Origin: an uncultured Clostridia bacterium
GTDB lineage: Bacteria; Bacillota; Clostridia; Oscillospirales; Acutalibacteraceae
Assembly (NCBI GenBank): GCA_947623175.1
Contig: CANQGK010000002.1
Location: 62,001 to 126,000, forward strand
Reading direction: 5' to 3'
DNA length: 64,000 nucleotides
The position numbers and the translations under genes are program-made. The notes under the pieces were generated by a model that did not search any database, had not been told where the DNA came from, and saw nothing but the letters and a program-made list of their open reading frames with translations. Shown one piece after another: positions 17,803-34,213 of this stretch; positions within the stretch are counted from its first letter, which is position 1, and each line of letters begins with the position of its first letter.

Positions 17803-17842
17803 GTTAAATATTAAGGACGAAACAGTATGCCGCTTACTTTAA
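17750..17842 (+). CDS. Candidate 30-residue leader peptide
   Basis: An ATG at 17750, nine bases after GAAAGGGG, opens a 30-codon frame beginning MGICFTHNATHPARR. It runs through the terminator stem and ends at 17842, overlapping the start of the aldolase gene in another frame. A ribosome translating it would unfold the terminator, so it could act as a leader peptide. No run of one amino acid points to a specific signal. Chance occurrence cannot be excluded. Confidence 0.35.
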   Translation: MGICFTHNATHPARRLFLLNIKDETVCRLL

Positions 17843-18657
17843 TGTATATAACCAATAATCCCGAAATCGCGCTGATTGCGGAAAAAAACGGCGTGGAGCG
17901 AATTTGGATAGATCTCGAAACCCTCGGCAAAGCGGAGCGCCAAAAAAACGTCGATTCGGTTAAATCGCATCATACGGTGAGCGACGTTGCGAAAATTTCC
18001 ACTCTTTTAAATCGGGCAGAATGCATGGTGCGGATTAACCCGTGGAACGAAAACTCCGCCGAAGAAATCGAAAAGGTTATTGCCGCGGGTGCCGACCGCA
18101 TAATGCTTCCCATGTGGCAAAGCTTTTATGAAGCGGACTCATTTCTGCGCGCCGTAAATGGCAGAACCCGCACAACCCTTTTGCTTGAGACTAAAGGCGC
18201 CGTCGAAGCGGCGGATGCTGTTCTTTCCCACCCGCTTTTAGACGAGATACATATAGGCTTAAACGATTTGCATTTAAGCTACGGACTTACCTTTATGTTC
18301 GAACTCTTGACAAACGGCGTCGTCGAGGATTTATGCCGGAAATTTGCCGAAAGGGGCATATCCTATGGCTTCGGCGGCATCGCAAAAATAGGCGGAGGGA
18401 CGCTTCCCTCGGCGCAAATAATTATGGAGCATTACCGTCTCGGCTCGACGAGGGCGATACTCTCGCGAAGCTTTTGCAACGCGGAGGAAATAAGTGATAT
18501 TAAGACGTTCGAGAGCTTATTTTGCGAAAATATGAAAAAGCTTCGTGATTACGAAGACTTTATGCCGTATGTTACTGCGCGGGATTACGCCGAAAACAAG
18601 CTCAACGTAGACAGCCGCGTAAAACAGATCGTTTCCGATATTAAGGAGCAAAAATGA
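17827..18657 (+). CDS. HpcH/HpaI aldolase / citrate lyase beta-family protein
   Basis: A (beta/alpha)8 barrel of the PEP/pyruvate aldolase superfamily. It shows RIWIDLE near residue 26, an Arg in MVRINPW, GADRIMLPMW near 91 and the acidic LLLETKGA near 120, the usual metal/pyruvate region. Family members cleave or form C-C bonds between pyruvate (or acetyl-CoA/oxaloacetate) and an aldehyde. It is the first gene of the polysaccharide locus and overlaps the PLP decarboxylase by four bases, suggesting the pair makes one precursor, perhaps a non-sugar substituent. The substrate is unknown. Ribosome site: TAAGGACG. Confidence 0.8.
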   Translation: MPLTLMYITNNPEIALIAEKNGVERIWIDLETLGKAERQKNVDSVKSHHTVSDVAKISTLLNRAECMVRINPWNENSAEEIEKVIAAGADRIMLPMWQSFYEADSFLRAVNGRTRTTLLLETKGAVEAADAVLSHPLLDEIHIGLNDLHLSYGLTFMFELLTNGVVEDLCRKFAERGISYGFGGIAKIGGGTLPSAQIIMEHYRLGSTRAILSRSFCNAEEISDIKTFESLFCENMKKLRDYEDFMPYVTARDYAENKLNVDSRVKQIVSDIKEQK

Positions 18658-19871
18658 AACTAACCCGCACAGAAATGGCTTGGCTTAACGAGAAGGTCGG
18701 CGATTCTTTTTATCTGCTCGACAGCGAGCAATTCAGGCAAAACTTCTTAGAGCTTAAAAAAGAATTTGAAGCGATTTATCCGAATTTCAATATTGCCTAT
18801 TCTTACAAAACCAACTATACGCCGAAGCTTTGCCGGATTGTAAACGAGCTTGGAGGCTATGCGGAAGTTGTTTCCGATATGGAAATGGAAATTGCATTGC
18901 GCGTGGGTGTAAATCCCGAGAAGATTATTTGGAACGGCCCGTTTAAAAATGCCGGCAAAGTGAGGGAGCTCTTGCTGTCGGGCGGCACGGTAAATTTAGA
19001 CTCCGCGTATGAGCTTGATATTATAAAAAATACAGCCGAAAAATACCCGGAAAACAAATTAAATATAGGCATTCGCTGTAATTTTGAGATTAACGACGGC
19101 GTCCTCTCGCGCTTCGGGTTTGATACCGAATCAAAGGAGTTTTACGACGCGCTGTCTCTTTTCGGGAAATATAAAAATTTATGTCTTTCGAGTTTGCAAT
19201 GCCATTTTGCAACCCGCAGGCTCGATACTTGGAAGCCTCGGGCGGAGGGCATGCTTGCGTTGACCGATAAATTGGGACTTAAGCCGCGGCATATCGACCT
19301 CGGCGGGGGGCTGTTCGGTAAAATGGCGGATTCGCTAAAGGCGCAGTTCGATACCGAAATTCCCACATATAAGCAATACGCCGAAGAGGTAGCTGCGGTA
19401 TTTCGTGAGCATTTTAAAAATTTCGAAGAAAAGCCGATGCTTTTAATCGAGCCCGGAAGCGCTCTGGCGGGCGATTGTATGCGGTTTGCCGCCAAGGTGG
19501 TTAATATAAAAAACGTAAGGGGAAAATCCATCGCAACCTTGCTTGGCAGTATTTACAACATTAACCCTACGCTTAACAAAAAGAATCCACCGCTTGAGGT
19601 AATCGCTATGGGGGGGCGTCGGGAATACTACCGCGACCTTGATTTCGGAGGATTTACCTGCATCGAGTCGGACTATTTGTACCGCCATTACGACGGATTG
19701 CTCGCAAGGGGAGACGTGGTGCTGTTCGGCAATGTGGGTTCCTATTCGATCGTACTTAAGCCGCCCTTTATCCTTCCGAATTTTCCTGTCATCGACATAT
19801 CGGGCGGGGATCTCGAAATTATCAAACGCGGCGAGAGCTTTGACGATATTTTTCATACTTTCAATTTTTAG
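18654..19871 (+). CDS. Fold-type III PLP-dependent decarboxylase (LysA/ODC-like)
   Basis: Alanine-racemase-type barrel plus beta domain. The PLP lysine is in YSYKTNYTP (Lys52), the phosphate-binding glycines in HIDLGGGLFG, LLIEPGSALAG stands for the EPGR motif, and CIESDYL near residue 336 carries the catalytic cysteine of diaminopimelate/ornithine decarboxylases. It differs clearly from the housekeeping LysA at 13880. Start ATG overlaps the aldolase stop (ATGA). It could decarboxylate or epimerise an amino-acid-like precursor. A G7 run lies near 19610-19616. Confidence 0.8.
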   Translation: MKLTRTEMAWLNEKVGDSFYLLDSEQFRQNFLELKKEFEAIYPNFNIAYSYKTNYTPKLCRIVNELGGYAEVVSDMEMEIALRVGVNPEKIIWNGPFKNAGKVRELLLSGGTVNLDSAYELDIIKNTAEKYPENKLNIGIRCNFEINDGVLSRFGFDTESKEFYDALSLFGKYKNLCLSSLQCHFATRRLDTWKPRAEGMLALTDKLGLKPRHIDLGGGLFGKMADSLKAQFDTEIPTYKQYAEEVAAVFREHFKNFEEKPMLLIEPGSALAGDCMRFAAKVVNIKNVRGKSIATLLGSIYNINPTLNKKNPPLEVIAMGGRREYYRDLDFGGFTCIESDYLYRHYDGLLARGDVVLFGNVGSYSIVLKPPFILPNFPVIDISGGDLEIIKRGESFDDIFHTFNF

Positions 19872-19879
19872 GAGAAGTT

Positions 19880-20590
19880 ATGTGGTATACACTTAACAGG
19901 GGGCTCAAGCGCTTTTTCGACCTGCTTATCTGTACCGTGGCGCTTGTGGTTTTAACGCCGCTTTGGATTGTTGTTGCCATAGCAATTAAATGTGACAGCG
20001 ATGGCGCCGTACTTTTCAAACAGCAAAGGCGCACCCGAAACGGCAAAATTTTTACCATGTATAAGTTTAGGTCCATGGTAGTCGACGCCGAGAGTCAAAG
20101 CGCGGGACTTTTCAATTATAAGGACGATCCGCGCGTTACCCGCGTGGGAAGGTTTCTTCGCGCAAGCAGTATCGACGAGCTGCCACAGCTTTTGAACGTC
20201 GTCAAGGGCGATCTTTCGATCGTGGGCCCACGTCCATGCGTTGCCTATGAATTGGGCGATTTTGAAACCTTGAACGAAAGGTACAAAAAGCGGTTCGAGG
20301 TTCGCGGCGGCATTACCGGACTTGCCCAGATAAAGGGGCGAAACGAAAATTCCTGGGAAGAAAAGGTTACATACGATAATATTTATATCGAAAAGTTTAA
20401 AAAGCAGGGCATATGGCTTGATATAAAAATCATAGCCGGCACCGTTGCGAAGGTGTTTAAAAAGCAGGATATTTACGAGGAAAAGTTGGATGAGACTTTA
20501 AGCGACGGCGAAGCAGCGAGACTTGCCGAGGCGGAGGTTATTCGCTTGGCGCACCTACAGACTAAGGAAAAAGCCGAAATGACTAATTGA
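19880..20590 (+). CDS. Undecaprenyl-phosphate sugar phosphotransferase (priming)
   Basis: Starts the repeat unit by moving a sugar-1-phosphate from a UDP-sugar to undecaprenyl phosphate at the inner face of the membrane. A single hydrophobic anchor (residues 14-36) is followed by the family core: [10 protein letters not shown] near residue 57, the [21 protein letters not shown] region and GPRPC. It is the small, single-membrane-segment form (236 aa) and has a C-terminal Glu/Lys-rich tail. Ribosome site AGGAGAAG. Confidence 0.92.
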
Positions 20591-20601
20591 AGGGAAAGCT
20601 T

Positions 20602-21528
20602 ATGAAAACAGACGTTGCTAACCGGTTTATTTGGTACAATGGCGGAATTGTAAACGTAAACGACGCTAAAGTAAATATTCTTTCACCCACCGCTCAATTC
20701 GGGCTTAACGTGTTTGAGGGCATTCCGTGTTATTGGAATGACGAAGAAAACCGGCTTTACGCCTTTCGCATAGGCGACCATTACGACCGGCTTATACGTT
20801 CGGCAAAACTGCTTCAAATAGACTGCCCTTATTCCAAGGAGGATATGCAAAACGCCCTTACCGCCGTTATAGCGGCTAACGAATATACCGAAAACCTGTC
20901 GGTACGGCAAACCCTTTTTGTAGACGGCTTCGGCTCGTGGGGCTCCGAGAAACCGGTGGGCATGTTCGTGGCGCCCATCCCTAAAAAAAATACGAGCGCC
21001 GAGTATAACAAAAACGGGCTTAATTGCTCTGTGACTTCTTATCGCAGAATTTCGGATAATACCCTGCCGCCTCGCATAAAATGCGGCGCGAATTACATAA
21101 ACAGCCGCTTCGGTCAGCGCGAGGCGGTAAGAAACGGTTACGACGCCTGCATTTTTCTTAACGAATTCGGCAAGGTGGCGGAGGGCGCCGGCTCCTGCTT
21201 TTTTATGGTAAAAAACGGCGAGCTTGTCACCCCGCGCCTTACTGACGCCGTGCTGGAGAGCATTACGCGCGATACGGTGATAAAGCTTGCGGACTTTGCC
21301 GGCATTAAGGTATGCGAACGAGCGGTTGACCGAACCGAGCTTTATACTTGCGACGAGGCGTTTTTATGCGGCTCGGCTATGGAGATTACGCCGGTGCTTT
21401 CGGTGGATAAATACACCGTCGGCGACGGCAAAACGGGCAAGCTTACCGCCGAATTGCATAAAGCCTATCTCGAAGCGGCAACGGGTAAGAATAAAAGCTT
21501 TAAAAATTGGGTTACGCCTGTTTTTTGA
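20602..21528 (+). CDS. Class IV aminotransferase (BCAT/D-amino-acid transaminase-like)
   Basis: PLP enzyme of fold type IV, with PRIKCGANYINS carrying the PLP lysine (near residue 159) and EGAGSCFF the cofactor-binding turn. The ATG at 20602, behind AGGGAAAG, is preferred over a TTG at 20587 that overlaps the previous gene. It is encoded apart from ilv genes and inside a polysaccharide locus, so a role in making an amino-acid or amino-sugar-acid substituent, with the aldolase and PLP decarboxylase nearby, is more likely than valine synthesis. Substrate unknown; 308 aa. Confidence 0.85.
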   Translation: MKTDVANRFIWYNGGIVNVNDAKVNILSPTAQFGLNVFEGIPCYWNDEENRLYAFRIGDHYDRLIRSAKLLQIDCPYSKEDMQNALTAVIAANEYTENLSVRQTLFVDGFGSWGSEKPVGMFVAPIPKKNTSAEYNKNGLNCSVTSYRRISDNTLPPRIKCGANYINSRFGQREAVRNGYDACIFLNEFGKVAEGAGSCFFMVKNGELVTPRLTDAVLESITRDTVIKLADFAGIKVCERAVDRTELYTCDEAFLCGSAMEITPVLSVDKYTVGDGKTGKLTAELHKAYLEAATGKNKSFKNWVTPVF

Positions 21529-29707: not shown

Positions 29708-30595
29708 ATGAGATTGACTAAAAAATTAAGACAAGTATATAGACAGTTATGGAATATAGAACGTAATACTTTGGGATGGCTTTCCTTTTCGATCCGTCAT
29801 CCGGAAGAGAAAAAAGAACTTAATAAAAATAAACGGTTTTATAATATACATCAAGGGCATCGGTGTTTTATACTCGGTAACGGTCCGTCATTAAAGGATA
29901 TCGATTTATCCTTGCTGGCGAACGAGTATACGTTTACGGTAAATCAAATTTCCCGTAATCCTCATTTTAAAGAATTGAAAACAAATTATCATTTTTATAC
30001 GGATGCTGATTTTTTTGAAATTGACGAAAATAATCCGGAAGATATGGAATTTTTGGATGCTATAAAGAAATTAAACACGGAAGATAACCAACCTACCGTC
30101 TTTTTTAATATTTCGGGTATGAGTTTTGCTAAAAAGTATGGTCTTGATAAACATCTTGATCTGCATTATATATACGGACGTTTAAATTTTTTGGAAAATT
30201 TTAAAAGAATAGACTATTCGAAATTTGTTCCGGGATTTAGTACAGTGGTTCAATTTTGTATCACAATGGCAATTTATATGGGGTTCAGCGAAATATATTT
30301 ACTCGGCTGCGATAATACGGGAATTATTACTGTCATCCAAACCATGTTAGACAATCAAGTTGACAATTATGCTTATGAGGTATCGGCTAATGAACAAAAA
30401 CGAATGAAAAAAGTTGCGAGTAAACATAACCTTTATGATTACGCATGCGGATATTCCTATATTTTAAAAGATTATATACTTCTTTATTCCTATTGCCAAA
30501 AGCGCGGAATCAAATTGCTGAATTGCACGGAACAAAGCGCGATAGATGCAATTCCGAAAGTAAGACTAAGTGATGTATTAAAAAATAACAAGTAA
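29708..30595 (+). CDS. DUF115/GT42-like (sialyltransferase-like) protein
   Basis: HRCFILGNGPSLKDIDLSLL (near residues 51-70) is the nucleotide-binding opening shared by DUF115 proteins and GT42 sialyltransferases, and GFSEIYLLGCDNTG (near 195-208) is the second conserved block. These families use or resemble users of CMP-sugars. Two CMP-sugar synthetase-like genes lie directly downstream, so a transferase for a CMP-activated sugar acid is the best guess. Start ATG behind AAGGAGTC. Length 295 aa. Donor is inferred only from context. Confidence 0.65.
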   Translation: MRLTKKLRQVYRQLWNIERNTLGWLSFSIRHPEEKKELNKNKRFYNIHQGHRCFILGNGPSLKDIDLSLLANEYTFTVNQISRNPHFKELKTNYHFYTDADFFEIDENNPEDMEFLDAIKKLNTEDNQPTVFFNISGMSFAKKYGLDKHLDLHYIYGRLNFLENFKRIDYSKFVPGFSTVVQFCITMAIYMGFSEIYLLGCDNTGIITVIQTMLDNQVDNYAYEVSANEQKRMKKVASKHNLYDYACGYSYILKDYILLYSYCQKRGIKLLNCTEQSAIDAIPKVRLSDVLKNNK

Positions 30596-30707
30596 CACGC
30601 CGACATGCAAGGAATAAAGATTTACAACGCCACCCACATTAGAAAACTCGAAGTATTTGAATGGGTGAATTTTGACTGTTTATTTTCAGAGAAAGGAATG
30701 CCGAAAA

Positions 30708-31439
30708 ATGAAAACAGTAGCATTTGTTCCGATAAAACTAAATAATCAGCGCACTCCCGGAAAGAACATAAAACGATTTGATGATGGTACTCCACTGATA
30801 ACTTTGTTTTTAAAAACGCTTGTTCAAGTAAAAGGAATAGATGATATATACGTGTTCTGTAGCGATGAGTGCATAAAAGATTATCTGGTAATGGGGGTTA
30901 AATGTTTAAAAAGACCTGAATATTTGGATACGCAAGAAGCAACCCCGCAGGACATCATATACGAATTCACAAAAAGAATTGATGCCGACGTATATGCTGT
31001 ATGTCATTGCACTTCACCATTTGTCACACGCGAACATTTTGAAGAATGTATCGAATCGGCAAAAAGCGATGAGTTTGATTCATCATTTACCGCAGAACGG
31101 CTACAGCATTTAATGTGGATAGAAAATAAGCCTATGAACTTTGATCCGTCCAATATTCCGAGAACACAGGATTTGCCGGTATATTACAGTGAGGTTTCGG
31201 CAGCGTATGTTTTTAAGAAAGAAGTTTTTACAAGGTATCATCGAAGAATTGGTCTTCACCCACATATTACGGCTGTGAGTGGGATTGAATGTATTGACAT
31301 TGACTATCCGGAGGATTTTGAAATGGCGAATGCGGTATATATGAATATTGTGAAAAATAGTGCGGGGGGGGGTAACTCCTTAATAAAGGTATGTGCACCC
31401 ATACACACATATTCTTTAATTGGACAGGAGGTTGCCTGA
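30708..31439 (+). CDS. CMP-sugar synthetase-like cytidylyltransferase, copy 1
   Basis: NeuA/KdsB-type nucleotidyltransferase of 243 aa. VPIKLNNQRTPGKNIKRF at the N-terminus replaces the usual PARxGSKxxPxKN loop, so it belongs to a divergent branch. YAVCHCTSPFV near residue 100 and IDIDYPEDFE near the C-terminus match family blocks. ATG at 30708 follows AAAGGAATG; a start 12 codons earlier lacks support. A run of nine G (31364-31372) near the end sets the reading frame of the last 20 residues. The stop overlaps the start of copy 2 (TGATG). Confidence 0.82.
   Translation: MKTVAFVPIKLNNQRTPGKNIKRFDDGTPLITLFLKTLVQVKGIDDIYVFCSDECIKDYLVMGVKCLKRPEYLDTQEATPQDIIYEFTKRIDADVYAVCHCTSPFVTREHFEECIESAKSDEFDSSFTAERLQHLMWIENKPMNFDPSNIPRTQDLPVYYSEVSAAYVFKKEVFTRYHRRIGLHPHITAVSGIECIDIDYPEDFEMANAVYMNIVKNSAGGGNSLIKVCAPIHTYSLIGQEVA
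31364..31372 (+). repeat. G9 homopolymer at the end of cytidylyltransferase copy 1
   Basis: Nine G. With G9 the frame continues 20 residues and ends on the start codon of copy 2. With G8 it would stop after four more codons, and with G10 immediately after the tract. A length change would therefore alter the tail and uncouple copy 2. Confidence 0.8.
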
Positions 31440-32134
31440 TGAAAACGGTAGTCTTGCTTCCAATAAAGCTAAATAATCAACGCGTTCCCGGCAAAAATAT
31501 AAAGCGGTTTTCTGACGGAACACCATTAATGACTTTAATTCAGAGATCTTGTTTGAATGTTTCTAAAGTAGATGAAATCTACGTCTATTGTAGTAATGAA
31601 ATTGTAAAGGAATACATTTTGCCGGGAGTTAAGTTCCTTGAGAGACCCGTGTTTCTTGATGGGGATGGCATTAATAGTAATGATATTATTAGAGAATTTA
31701 TAAAAACAGTTGATGCAGATATTTATGTAGAGACACACGCAACAGGACCTTTTACGCAAAGTAGCAGTATAAATGCTTGTGTAGAAGCTGTAGCTTCAGG
31801 AGAATATGATTCTGCTTTTTTGGCAAAGAGAATTCAAGAATTCTTGTGGCAGAATGGAACACCAATGAATTTTAATATTCAACATTTCCCCAGAACGCAA
31901 GACTTGATTCCTATTTATTCAGAAGCGCCGGGGGCATATGTTTTTACAAAGAAAACTTTTGAAAAGTATGGACGCCGAGTAGGAGTTAAACCGTACATCC
32001 ATGAAGTTTCGGAAGTTGAAAGCAGGGACATCGACTACCCAGAGGATTTTGAAATTGCAAATGCAATTTACATGTCAATGATAAAGGAGGAAAAAAATGA
32101 ATCATGCGATGCTGTTGGATTGCACATTACGTGA
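31439..32134 (+). CDS. CMP-sugar synthetase-like cytidylyltransferase, copy 2
   Basis: Tandem paralogue of the preceding gene: same LPIKLNNQRVPGKNIKRF opening, THATGPF block near residue 101, FPRTQDLIPIYSEAPGAYVF and RDIDYPEDFE. By eye roughly half the residues are identical, so the pair arose by an old duplication and may use different sugar acids. Start ATG at 31439 is behind AGGAGG, overlapping the stop of copy 1. The last 38 bases overlap the aldolase gene, whose GGAGG ribosome site lies inside this gene. 231 aa. Confidence 0.82.
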   Translation: MKTVVLLPIKLNNQRVPGKNIKRFSDGTPLMTLIQRSCLNVSKVDEIYVYCSNEIVKEYILPGVKFLERPVFLDGDGINSNDIIREFIKTVDADIYVETHATGPFTQSSSINACVEAVASGEYDSAFLAKRIQEFLWQNGTPMNFNIQHFPRTQDLIPIYSEAPGAYVFTKKTFEKYGRRVGVKPYIHEVSEVESRDIDYPEDFEIANAIYMSMIKEEKNESCDAVGLHIT

Positions 32135-33719
32135 TGGAGCATACTTGATTGATAAGTATTTTGGAGATCTTACGATTCAAGGGATTATTTCCGGATTGGT
32201 AAAGGCCAAAATAGATTATATAGAGATCGGCTTTTTGCAAAACGAGGGCTTCGGAGAAGGGAAAACCGTTTTCAAAAATTCCGCAGACGCGGAAAGATAT
32301 ATACCGAAGAACAGGGGAAATTGCCTGTTCACTGTTCTTGCGGATTTCAGCAGATATTCTATAGAAAATCTGGACGAAAGAACGGAAGACAGTATTGATG
32401 CGGTACGGGAATGCTTTTTTAAGCAGGAACGCTTTGATGCGATTGAAAATTGCAGAAGAATCAAAGAAAAAGGATATCTTGTTTTTGTACAGCCGGTGGA
32501 TATTCTCGGATATACGGATAAAGAACTTATCGAATTTATCGAGAAGGTCAATGAAATAGAACCTTACTGCTTTTCCATTGTGGATACTTTCGGTTCTATG
32601 TATCAGGAAGATTTGCAGAGAGTCTTTGAAATCATCAATCATAATTTAGTAAAAAGCTGTAAAATCGGCTTTCATTCACACAATAATATGCAGTTGTCAA
32701 ATGCGCTTTCACAGGACTTTATCCGAATGACCTGTGGGAAACGCGAGGTAATCGTAGACGGTACGATCTCCGGCATGGGGCGCGGCGCAGGAAATACACC
32801 CACAGAACTGATTGCTCAGTATATGGTCTCAAAGCTCGGCTATGGATATGATATGAACGCTATTCTGGATATTATAGACGGTTATATGGGCAATATCCGT
32901 TCCCGCTGCAGTTGGGGATATACGACGCCATACTTTATTGCGGGCTGTTACAGCGCGCATGTCAACAATATTACTTACTTAACCGAAAAGAACAGTATCC
33001 GTTCAAAAGATATCAGCTACATATTGAATAAAATCGGAGCTTTAAAACGGAAACGCTATGACTATGATTTATTAGAAAACACTTATTTGGACTTATTACA
33101 CTCCGACATCGACGACAGCTTAGCACTGTCTAAGTTGAAGCAAAGGATCGGCGGACGGTCGGTATTGATTATTGCTCCCGGACAGACTGCCACGCAATAT
33201 ACGACAGATATTCTGCAATATATCAACCTGAATAATCCGGTTGTAATTACGGTGAATTTTATCCACGATCGGATTCATTCGGATTACGTATATATGAATA
33301 ACGCAAAACGCTATGATTATTGGAAACCCAGCGAACATTTTAAGGAATGTAACAAGATTCTTGCCTCTAATTTGGCGGAACAAAGTGAAGTGTCGGATGG
33401 AAAAACATTGGTAGTTTCTTTTGTCAGCCTTGTAAAATGCGGTTGGGAACACATGGATAATTCTACGATTATGCTTCTGCGGTTGCTGGATAAGTTATGT
33501 GTTGGCGAAATTGCAATTGCCGGTTTTGACGGATATGGATATTCCGGCAACTATGTCAATGCCGAGTTGTCAACAAAAGTGGAAAATCCGACTGCCGTGA
33601 ACCAAGAAATTGAAGAAATGTTTACGGATTATTTGGAGACAAGAAACAATCAAGAGGTCAAAGTCAGCTTTATTACACCTTCCCGCTTTGAGAGCTGTCT
33701 GGAAAGCAGGAATCTATGA
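32097..33719 (+). CDS. DmpG/HMGL-like pyruvate aldolase fused to a DUF115-like domain
   Basis: Residues 1-300 form a DRE-TIM metallolyase barrel: LLDCTLRDGAY (6-16), the metal ligands HSHNN (near 193-197) and GMGRGAGNTPTE (near 226-237), closest in pattern to 4-hydroxy-2-oxovalerate aldolase. That enzyme class joins or splits pyruvate and an aldehyde. Residues 350-540 (GGRSVLIIAPGQTATQY onward) look like the nucleotide-binding DUF115 fold. It sits between CMP-sugar synthetase genes and a KdsC-like gene, which suggests synthesis of a 2-keto-3-deoxy sugar acid. ATP-, CoA- or PEP-binding signatures are not seen. 540 aa. Confidence 0.75.
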   Translation: MNHAMLLDCTLRDGAYLIDKYFGDLTIQGIISGLVKAKIDYIEIGFLQNEGFGEGKTVFKNSADAERYIPKNRGNCLFTVLADFSRYSIENLDERTEDSIDAVRECFFKQERFDAIENCRRIKEKGYLVFVQPVDILGYTDKELIEFIEKVNEIEPYCFSIVDTFGSMYQEDLQRVFEIINHNLVKSCKIGFHSHNNMQLSNALSQDFIRMTCGKREVIVDGTISGMGRGAGNTPTELIAQYMVSKLGYGYDMNAILDIIDGYMGNIRSRCSWGYTTPYFIAGCYSAHVNNITYLTEKNSIRSKDISYILNKIGALKRKRYDYDLLENTYLDLLHSDIDDSLALSKLKQRIGGRSVLIIAPGQTATQYTTDILQYINLNNPVVITVNFIHDRIHSDYVYMNNAKRYDYWKPSEHFKECNKILASNLAEQSEVSDGKTLVVSFVSLVKCGWEHMDNSTIMLLRLLDKLCVGEIAIAGFDGYGYSGNYVNAELSTKVENPTAVNQEIEEMFTDYLETRNNQEVKVSFITPSRFESCLESRNL

Positions 33720-34213
33720 AACAAGATATTCAATTTCTCGTTATGGATGTCGACGGTACGTTAACCGATGGTAAAATCTACATGGGCGAAAACGGCGAAC
33801 TAATGAAAGCGTTTGACATTAAAGACGGATGCGGAATCAAGGATATTTTACCGAAGCATGGAATCATCCCGGTTATCATAACCGCAAGGAAAAGCAAAAT
33901 ACTTGAAAATCGGTGTAACGAGTTAAATATTCAAGAATTGTATCAAGGCGTCAGGGATAAAACGAAACAGATCAAAAAAATTTTAAAACAGTATTCTGAA
34001 GTGGACAATAAAAAGTATCGTTTTTGTAATTGTGCGTATATCGGAGATGATATCTTAGATTTGCTTCCGATTATGGCGATTAAGGATGCGGGAGGACTGA
34101 CTGCCTGCCCGTCGGATGCTGTAGATGAAGTAAAAGCAACGGTTGATTTCATTTGCAAAAAAAGTGGAGGAAACGGGGCAGTTCGAGAATTTATTGAATG
34201 GATTATCTCTTAA
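33716..34213 (+). CDS. KdsC-like HAD phosphatase
   Basis: C0-type HAD hydrolase of 165 aa with all motifs: VMDVDGTLTDG (nucleophile and general acid Asp), PVIITARKS (motif II Thr/Ser region), a conserved Lys and YIGDDILDLLPI (motif IV). KdsC removes the phosphate from Kdo-8-phosphate; related members act on nonulosonate phosphates. It overlaps the aldolase gene by four bases (ATGA), which fits the order: condensation, dephosphorylation, CMP activation. Confidence 0.88.
   Translation: MKQDIQFLVMDVDGTLTDGKIYMGENGELMKAFDIKDGCGIKDILPKHGIIPVIITARKSKILENRCNELNIQELYQGVRDKTKQIKKILKQYSEVDNKKYRFCNCAYIGDDILDLLPIMAIKDAGGLTACPSDAVDEVKATVDFICKKSGGNGAVREFIEWIIS

Follow-up and report, generated by a model that had tools for sequence, protein, structure and literature searches.

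A putative pyruvate aldolase in the place of KdsA: a candidate route to CMP-activated ulosonic acids without a phosphoenolpyruvate-dependent synthase

Genomes are usually scored for sugars of the 3-deoxy-manno-octulosonate (Kdo) and sialic types by whether they encode KdsA or NeuB. What, then, makes the sugar acid in a locus that carries the phosphatase and the cytidine monophosphate (CMP) transferases of such a pathway with neither of these phosphoenolpyruvate (PEP)-dependent synthases? The question is raised by the window analyzed here, a stretch of 64,000 nucleotides (nt) from an uncultured Clostridia bacterium of the order Oscillospirales (contig CANQGK010000002.1, positions 62,001 to 126,000), in which two CMP-ulosonate synthetase-like nucleotidyltransferase genes (NT1 and NT2), an aldolase gene (ALD) and a KdsC-family phosphatase gene form one overlapping block. 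Judged from the sequence of the block and its relatives, its product is very probably a CMP-activated 3-deoxy-2-ulosonic acid, formed with no PEP-dependent synthase and destined for a surface polysaccharide. ALD, as a divalent-metal pyruvate aldolase, would condense the enolate of pyruvate with an aldose phosphate, and the phosphatase would strip the phosphate from the resulting 2-keto-3-deoxy sugar acid phosphate; NT1 and NT2 would activate the freed ulosonic acid with cytidine triphosphate, an MptE-like transferase and perhaps others would use the CMP-sugar, and the adjacent Wzx would export the unit. We infer this chemistry from gene content and order, metal-site conservation, the predicted fold of ALD and a place beside the NT gene that ALD shares with KdsA.

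That shared place is the strongest evidence for a replacement, and it was examined by starting from NT2, not from ALD, and scoring neighbors within 1.5 kb. Across 388 genomes of the order (threshold 1e-8), NT2 has matches in 24 genomes at 29 places. The 19 strong places (>=190 bits) adjoin ALD (16), an HpaI/GarL-like aldolase (2) or KdsA (1), and the 10 weak ones (<=135 bits) adjoin NeuB (4), ALD (1) or neither (5). A search of 391 genomes of the class (1e-45) gives 15 NT2 places, 10 of them new (166-317 bits), with ALD at six, the HpaI/GarL-like aldolase at three and KdsA at one. Pooled at >=165 bits, the 29 strong NT2 relatives all adjoin an enzyme of a kind known to produce 3-deoxy-2-keto acids: ALD in 22, HpaI/GarL-like in five, KdsA in two, NeuB in none, and none without a partner. 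Two loci run MptE-NT-KdsA-KdsD-KdsC (L209) and NT-KdsA-KdsD-KdsC (L229), with scores of 402 and 396 bits on the KdsA model TIGR01362 (cut-off 314), 305 and 287 on the KpsF/KdsD model TIGR00393 (203.7), and 153 and 161 on the KdsC-family model TIGR01670 (106.95). A third, L228, runs NT-ALD-KdsD, its isomerase scoring 308 bits on the same KpsF/KdsD model. Because one NT family adjoins ALD in L228 and KdsA in L209 and L229, ALD occupies the place of KdsA, and these findings suggest that it most likely replaces KdsA through pyruvate aldol chemistry; they also point to Kdo as the product in those lineages. In L056, NT and ALD share a strand with a KdsC-like gene and with a KdsD-like SIS gene that scores 96 bits, below cut-off. 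The original prediction, that a pyruvate aldolase stands where the synthase is expected, thus finds one of three occupants in the NT-adjacent place: ALD, a second pyruvate-aldolase-like family or KdsA. That KdsA in particular is the enzyme most likely replaced had been overlooked.

The second family is itself a candidate replacement for KdsA. It takes the place of ALD beside the same NT family in L210, L211, L219, L221 and L222; the assignment rests on models for the first two, which score 130-166 bits on the GarL, HpaI and rhamnonate-aldolase models, below the cut-offs; the other three are assigned by their 67-72% identity to these two. We consider it somewhat better than an even chance that polysaccharide loci of several phyla hold a widespread PEP-independent route of the Kdo type, in which pyruvate aldolases of two unrelated families have repeatedly supplanted KdsA. 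One family is DmpG-like, in many members joined to a domain that may bind nucleotide sugars, and the other is HpaI/GarL-like. If so, the absence of KdsA and NeuB does not mean the absence of ulosonic acids.

In the window, the genes and the two parts of ALD are arranged as follows.

29708..30595, + strand: MptE-like protein (PF01973, 37.7 bits, cut-off 34.6), probable glycosyltransferase for the CMP-sugar
30708..31439, + strand: NT1, CMP-ulosonate synthetase-like, CTP_transf_3, PseF-like branch (PF02348, 42.7 bits, cut-off 22.6)
31436..32134, + strand: NT2, CMP-ulosonate synthetase-like, overlapping the start of ALD (PF02348, 43.9 bits, cut-off 22.6)
32097-33719, + strand: whole ALD, 540 amino acids (aa) (PF00682, 71.2 bits, cut-off 29, residues 6-258)
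32097..33119, + strand: ALD catalytic part, residues 1-341, DmpG/HMGL-type TIM barrel plus helical part
33120..33719, + strand: ALD C-terminal domain, conserved, weakly like SteA C-terminal/MptE-type proteins
33716..34213, + strand: KdsC-family HAD phosphatase (TIGR01670, 144.6 bits, cut-off 106.95)

The called open reading frames (ORFs) overlap by 4 nt (NT1/NT2), 38 nt (NT2/ALD), 4 nt (ALD/phosphatase) and 16 nt (phosphatase/Wzx), which makes coupling from NT1 to the Wzx-type flippase credible, and 112 nt separate the MptE-like gene from NT1. The overlapping block described in the original prediction, with its two CMP-sugar synthetase-like genes, DmpG/HMGL-type aldolase and KdsC-like phosphatase, is borne out by the family cut-offs above. 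The phosphatase falls below the kdsC equivalog NF007019 (139 vs 208 bits) and scores 109.6 bits on the model for phosphatases of 2-keto-3-deoxynononic acid (Kdn) 9-phosphate, cut-off 180. The upstream gene, previously called GT42/DUF115-like, passes the MptE-like model, whose family is tied to Maf/GT42 transferases. The surrounding genes (an initiating sugar transferase, glycosyltransferases, LicD, a small cytidylyltransferase-like gene, an ATP-grasp protein, WecB, relatives of FnlA and WbcJ and, by eye, a Wzy-like membrane protein) place the block within a predicted surface polysaccharide locus. At window positions 17827-21528 of the same locus, a second aldolase-type protein, a divergent member of the HpcH/HpaI family (PF03328, 33.9 bits), flanks the initiating sugar transferase together with a diaminopimelate-decarboxylase-like protein and an IlvE-type class IV aminotransferase.

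ALD belongs to the PF00682 superfamily, as originally proposed, and is predicted to share the fold of the DmpG/HMGL-type aldolases. It is not a plain DmpG: scores on the DmpG models (81.7 vs 229 and 72.3 vs 286 bits) lie below the cut-offs, and the protein carries an extra C-terminal domain of ~200 aa (340-540) that had been missed. R12, D13, H193 and H195, which align with DmpG and are presumably the active-site arginine and the metal-site aspartate with its two histidines, are kept in 57 of 57 sequences. The C-terminal domain has seven invariant columns across 35 sequences, and that of the window ALD has no Pfam listing at E 0.001 or better. Among the 35 members, Pfam matches reach 7.4e-05 for D-lyxose isomerase and 0.0012 for MptE-like, each in 2 of 35. 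Sequence matches in the PDB are weak (best 9hmz, E=0.0078; 8sd5, E=0.88), and the structure-match list for ALD (VIA-align) is filled by residues 1-336, so it is uninformative on this domain. In hhalign comparisons the MptE set is, in its best runs, a weak best of eight, with values of 1.7-34%; its three best runs have E 0.0004-0.0015, and three others give 1.7-1.8%, against controls of up to 2.0%. We propose, with low confidence, that the domain binds a cytidine nucleotide, CMP or CMP-sugar. Short ALDs lack it and still have NT or KdsD neighbors, so it is dispensable for the basic role of the family.

NT1 and NT2 are 52% identical and represent two separate lineages, each found singly in other loci (the nearest NT1 relatives are in L073 and L032). 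Their adjacency at 30708-32134, where the nearest relatives occur one per locus, could reflect two ulosonates or two uses. Neither reaches the PseF model TIGR03584 (57.4 bits for NT1 and 53 for NT2, cut-off 205.7), and both score ~30 bits on the KdsB models, far under the cut-offs. The NT partners of ALD fall into two deep clades, KdsB-like (33 loci) and PseF-like (38 loci), both of which presumably activate 2-keto-3-deoxy acids, and the ALD tree requires at least 11 switches between the two types. Three KdsB-like NTs of relatives were scored on the kdsB equivalog TIGR00466: those of L077 and L146 pass and that of L145 fails.

The arrangement recurs widely. We fetched 121 loci (the window, L032-L071 and L072-L151, the last 80 being the best of 567 relatives) and counted 97 full-length ALDs, the window included; dropped loci have short aldolases, ALDs at <=540 bits, or ALDs missed by ORF picking (for example L037, L052, L107, L113, L120, L143 and L149). 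NT, phosphatase and thiamine diphosphate (ThDP) enzyme labels come from profiles built on these loci plus a motif rule, with one label for each locus that has several NTs (L041, L055, L148). Of the 97 ALDs, 71 have a same-strand NT no more than six genes away; in 64 it is directly upstream, with a gap of <=30 nt in 57 of these, and a phosphatase lies directly downstream of 42. Random genes that are neither NT nor phosphatase (2000 draws) give an upstream NT a mean of 7.0 times (maximum 15) and a downstream phosphatase 4.8 times (maximum 13). The phosphatase is KdsC-like at 31 and Gph-like at 15 of the 71 NT loci. By record names, NT-linked ALDs occur in Bacillota, Bacteroidota, Campylobacterota, Synergistota and Candidatus Melainabacteria, and a Leisingera plasmid (Pseudomonadota) carries, in order, an annotated aldolase (25% identity to ALD over 99%), 3-deoxy-manno-octulosonate cytidylyltransferase and HAD hydrolase. 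Culturable bacteria among the relatives include Niameybacter massiliensis (L138) and Paenibacillus sp. 32352 (L145). PolyST-type (PF07388) or MptE-like genes, counted by similarity to seed proteins (the PolyST seeds pass PF07388), are present at 40 of 71 NT loci and at none of the 20 loci where a ThDP enzyme occurs and an NT does not (Fisher p 1.3e-6, uncorrected for kinship); MptE-like genes alone are at 17 and 0. A PfkB kinase near ALD in L050, L053, L071 and L144 resembles the kinase half of an aldolase/kinase fusion for 2-keto-3-deoxy-6-phosphogluconate, and one of the four, scored on the fusion model, reaches 542 bits (cut-off 700). The two exchanging NT types, the PolyST-type and MptE-like genes and these kinases all favor an ulosonic acid as the probable product. 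No description of the block was found among open-licence papers.

The usual synthases are missing from the window genome (2.38 Mb) as a whole, extending what had been seen in the window: the NeuB model PF03102 has 0 matches, with 9 of 14 controls matching, and the KdsA model TIGR01362 has 0. Its sole PF00793 (DAHP_synth_1) match adjoins a prephenate-dehydrogenase-like ORF and reads, by eye, as a 3-deoxy-arabino-heptulosonate 7-phosphate (DAHP) synthase. At 94.35% completeness, in 54 contigs, the assembly may have missed a NeuB or KdsA gene. Searches of the 121 loci (tblastn, 1e-8; NeuB, KdsA and DAHP synthase queries, of which one, L156, was a wrong-strand ORF and the others were used) found no NeuB or KdsA homologue. 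A NeuB-type nonulosonate pathway is rejected, there being no NeuB match in the window genome or in these loci.

Other findings weigh against a PEP-independent pathway. The original prediction took NeuB and KdsA not to co-occur with the block; this stands for the loci and gives way in part at the level of genomes. Strong NeuB occurs elsewhere in 1 of 26 ALD genomes of the order, chosen for holding the aldolase (G311, 325 bits; 17 others have only weak matches of 26-45 bits), and in 18 of 40 further genomes (best matches 235-360 bits); this second search included 41 of the 80 named loci, mostly of the NT type. KdsA passes its cut-off elsewhere in 0 of 26 and 4 of 40. One or the other synthase is thus in 22 of 66 genomes and neither is in 44, where weak PF03102 matches (26-47 bits), which coincide with weak TIGR01362 matches, are taken as DAHP synthases (two were read). 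Many of the genomes are metagenome-assembled. The position of the catalytic histidine of DmpG is a tyrosine in the window ALD (Y 48, R 8, F 1 among 57 sequences; the L228 ALD has His), and the window NTs and ALD lie far under the cut-offs of all named equivalogs. No phosphatase lies within six genes at 25 of 71 NT loci, and none is seen beside ALD in L228. KpsF/KdsD isomerases pass the cut-off in 1 of the 59 genomes searched, which leaves the supply of arabinose 5-phosphate unexplained in most of them; the window genome offers no more than a SIS-only relative, which scores 124 bits against a cut-off of 203.7 and lies next to a ribokinase-like gene. Finally, 20 of 97 ALDs have an acetolactate-synthase-like ThDP enzyme and no NT (for instance L091, L094, L095, L097, L103, L105 and L111), so ALD is not bound to CMP-sugars everywhere; two loci have both and six neither.

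The ThDP loci support an alternative in which ALD makes a 2-keto acid that does not become the sugar-acid backbone but goes to a side group or serves a ThDP carboligase; the NTs would then use an ulosonate made elsewhere or imported. Relatives of RfbF and RfbH, which belong to CDP-dideoxyhexose synthesis, are at 11 and 10 of the 20 ThDP loci vs 3 and 9 of the 71 NT loci, and these loci possibly make branched-chain dideoxy sugars from a longer keto acid. There ALD could supply the ThDP enzyme with its 2-keto acid, a role still in keeping with a pyruvate aldolase. As an account of the NT loci this alternative is improbable: an NT lies directly upstream of most ALDs, the NT and ThDP labels need 3 changes on the ALD tree vs 18 when shuffled, the 121 loci yield no NeuB or KdsA, and ALD and KdsA share a place beside one NT family. 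Less probable still is that ALD works in the direction of breakdown and clears surplus ulosonate. Pyruvate aldol chemistry can run either way, and it is mainly as catabolic enzymes that DmpG, GarL and HpaI are known; yet the ALD gene overlaps its phosphatase and NT neighbors, the same locus encodes transferases and a flippase, and the NeuB and KdsA models find no other synthase in the window genome. Two observations stand apart. The ThDP enzyme is two overlapping ORFs in L056 (7848-9444, 177+377 aa) and L230 (5504-7193, 204+373 aa), which suggests split subunits or a frameshift. At L061 (8382-12307), a short aldolase has a cytidylyltransferase/PEP-mutase-like fusion on one side and a ThDP enzyme on the other, by eye a phosphonate-type locus; a phosphonate pathway is rejected as a general reading, that PEP-mutase-like gene having been seen at L061 and the other loci not screened.

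The identity of the product is a separate matter, compatible with synthesis by ALD. The gene arrangements suggest that the acceptor is most likely D-arabinose 5-phosphate, with Kdo-8-phosphate as product, in at least some lineages. For the block in general, a product other than Kdo, such as Kdn from mannose 6-phosphate, has a substantial chance, though somewhat short of even: the rarity of KpsF/KdsD, the score of the phosphatase on the Kdn-9-phosphate phosphatase model and the KdsB scores of the window NTs favor it, set against the NT family that adjoins KdsA-KdsD-KdsC and the ALD beside KdsD in L228. Since the window genome has the SIS-only relative alone, mannose 6-phosphate, leading to Kdn, or another aldose phosphate is a possible acceptor there. 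KdsD as proof of Kdo is rejected, being under cut-off in 58 of 59 genomes. These comparisons support the aldolase route as first interpreted, and they lend strong support to a Kdo/ulosonate pathway variant that does without PEP. If true, many KdsA/NeuB-negative bacteria may carry surface CMP-activated ulosonic acids, with relevance to host recognition, phage receptors and glycan discovery; one metabolic step would be filled by three unrelated enzymes and two chemistries, and the aldolases would be new carboligating enzymes acting on sugar phosphates.

Among known systems, the Kdo pathway (KdsD, KdsA, KdsC, KdsB) is the closest parallel: the block likewise combines a KdsC-family phosphatase with a CMP transferase, some relatives have a KdsB-type NT or KdsD, and ALD sits in the KdsA position. 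It differs in having no KdsA, in a C-C bond that would be formed from pyruvate instead of PEP, and in PseF-like NTs in the window. An ordinary kdsA-containing set has been reported in the Gram-positive Bacillus coahuilensis (PMC4744853). With the NeuB pathways for sialic, legionaminic and pseudaminic acids, the block shares CMP transferases nearest the PseF model and, in many related loci, sialyltransferase-type genes; unlike them, it has no NeuB in the window genome, nor was one found in the 121 loci. DmpG (4-hydroxy-2-oxovalerate aldolase) and 3dxi, a putative aldolase of Bacteroides vulgatus, share the fold and the Arg/Asp/His/His site with ALD, which differs from DmpG in falling under its model cut-offs, in a tyrosine for the catalytic histidine and in its extra C-terminal domain. 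The HpaI/GarL class II pyruvate aldolases form a family distinct from ALD, and yet relatives of theirs lie beside the same NT family in five places.

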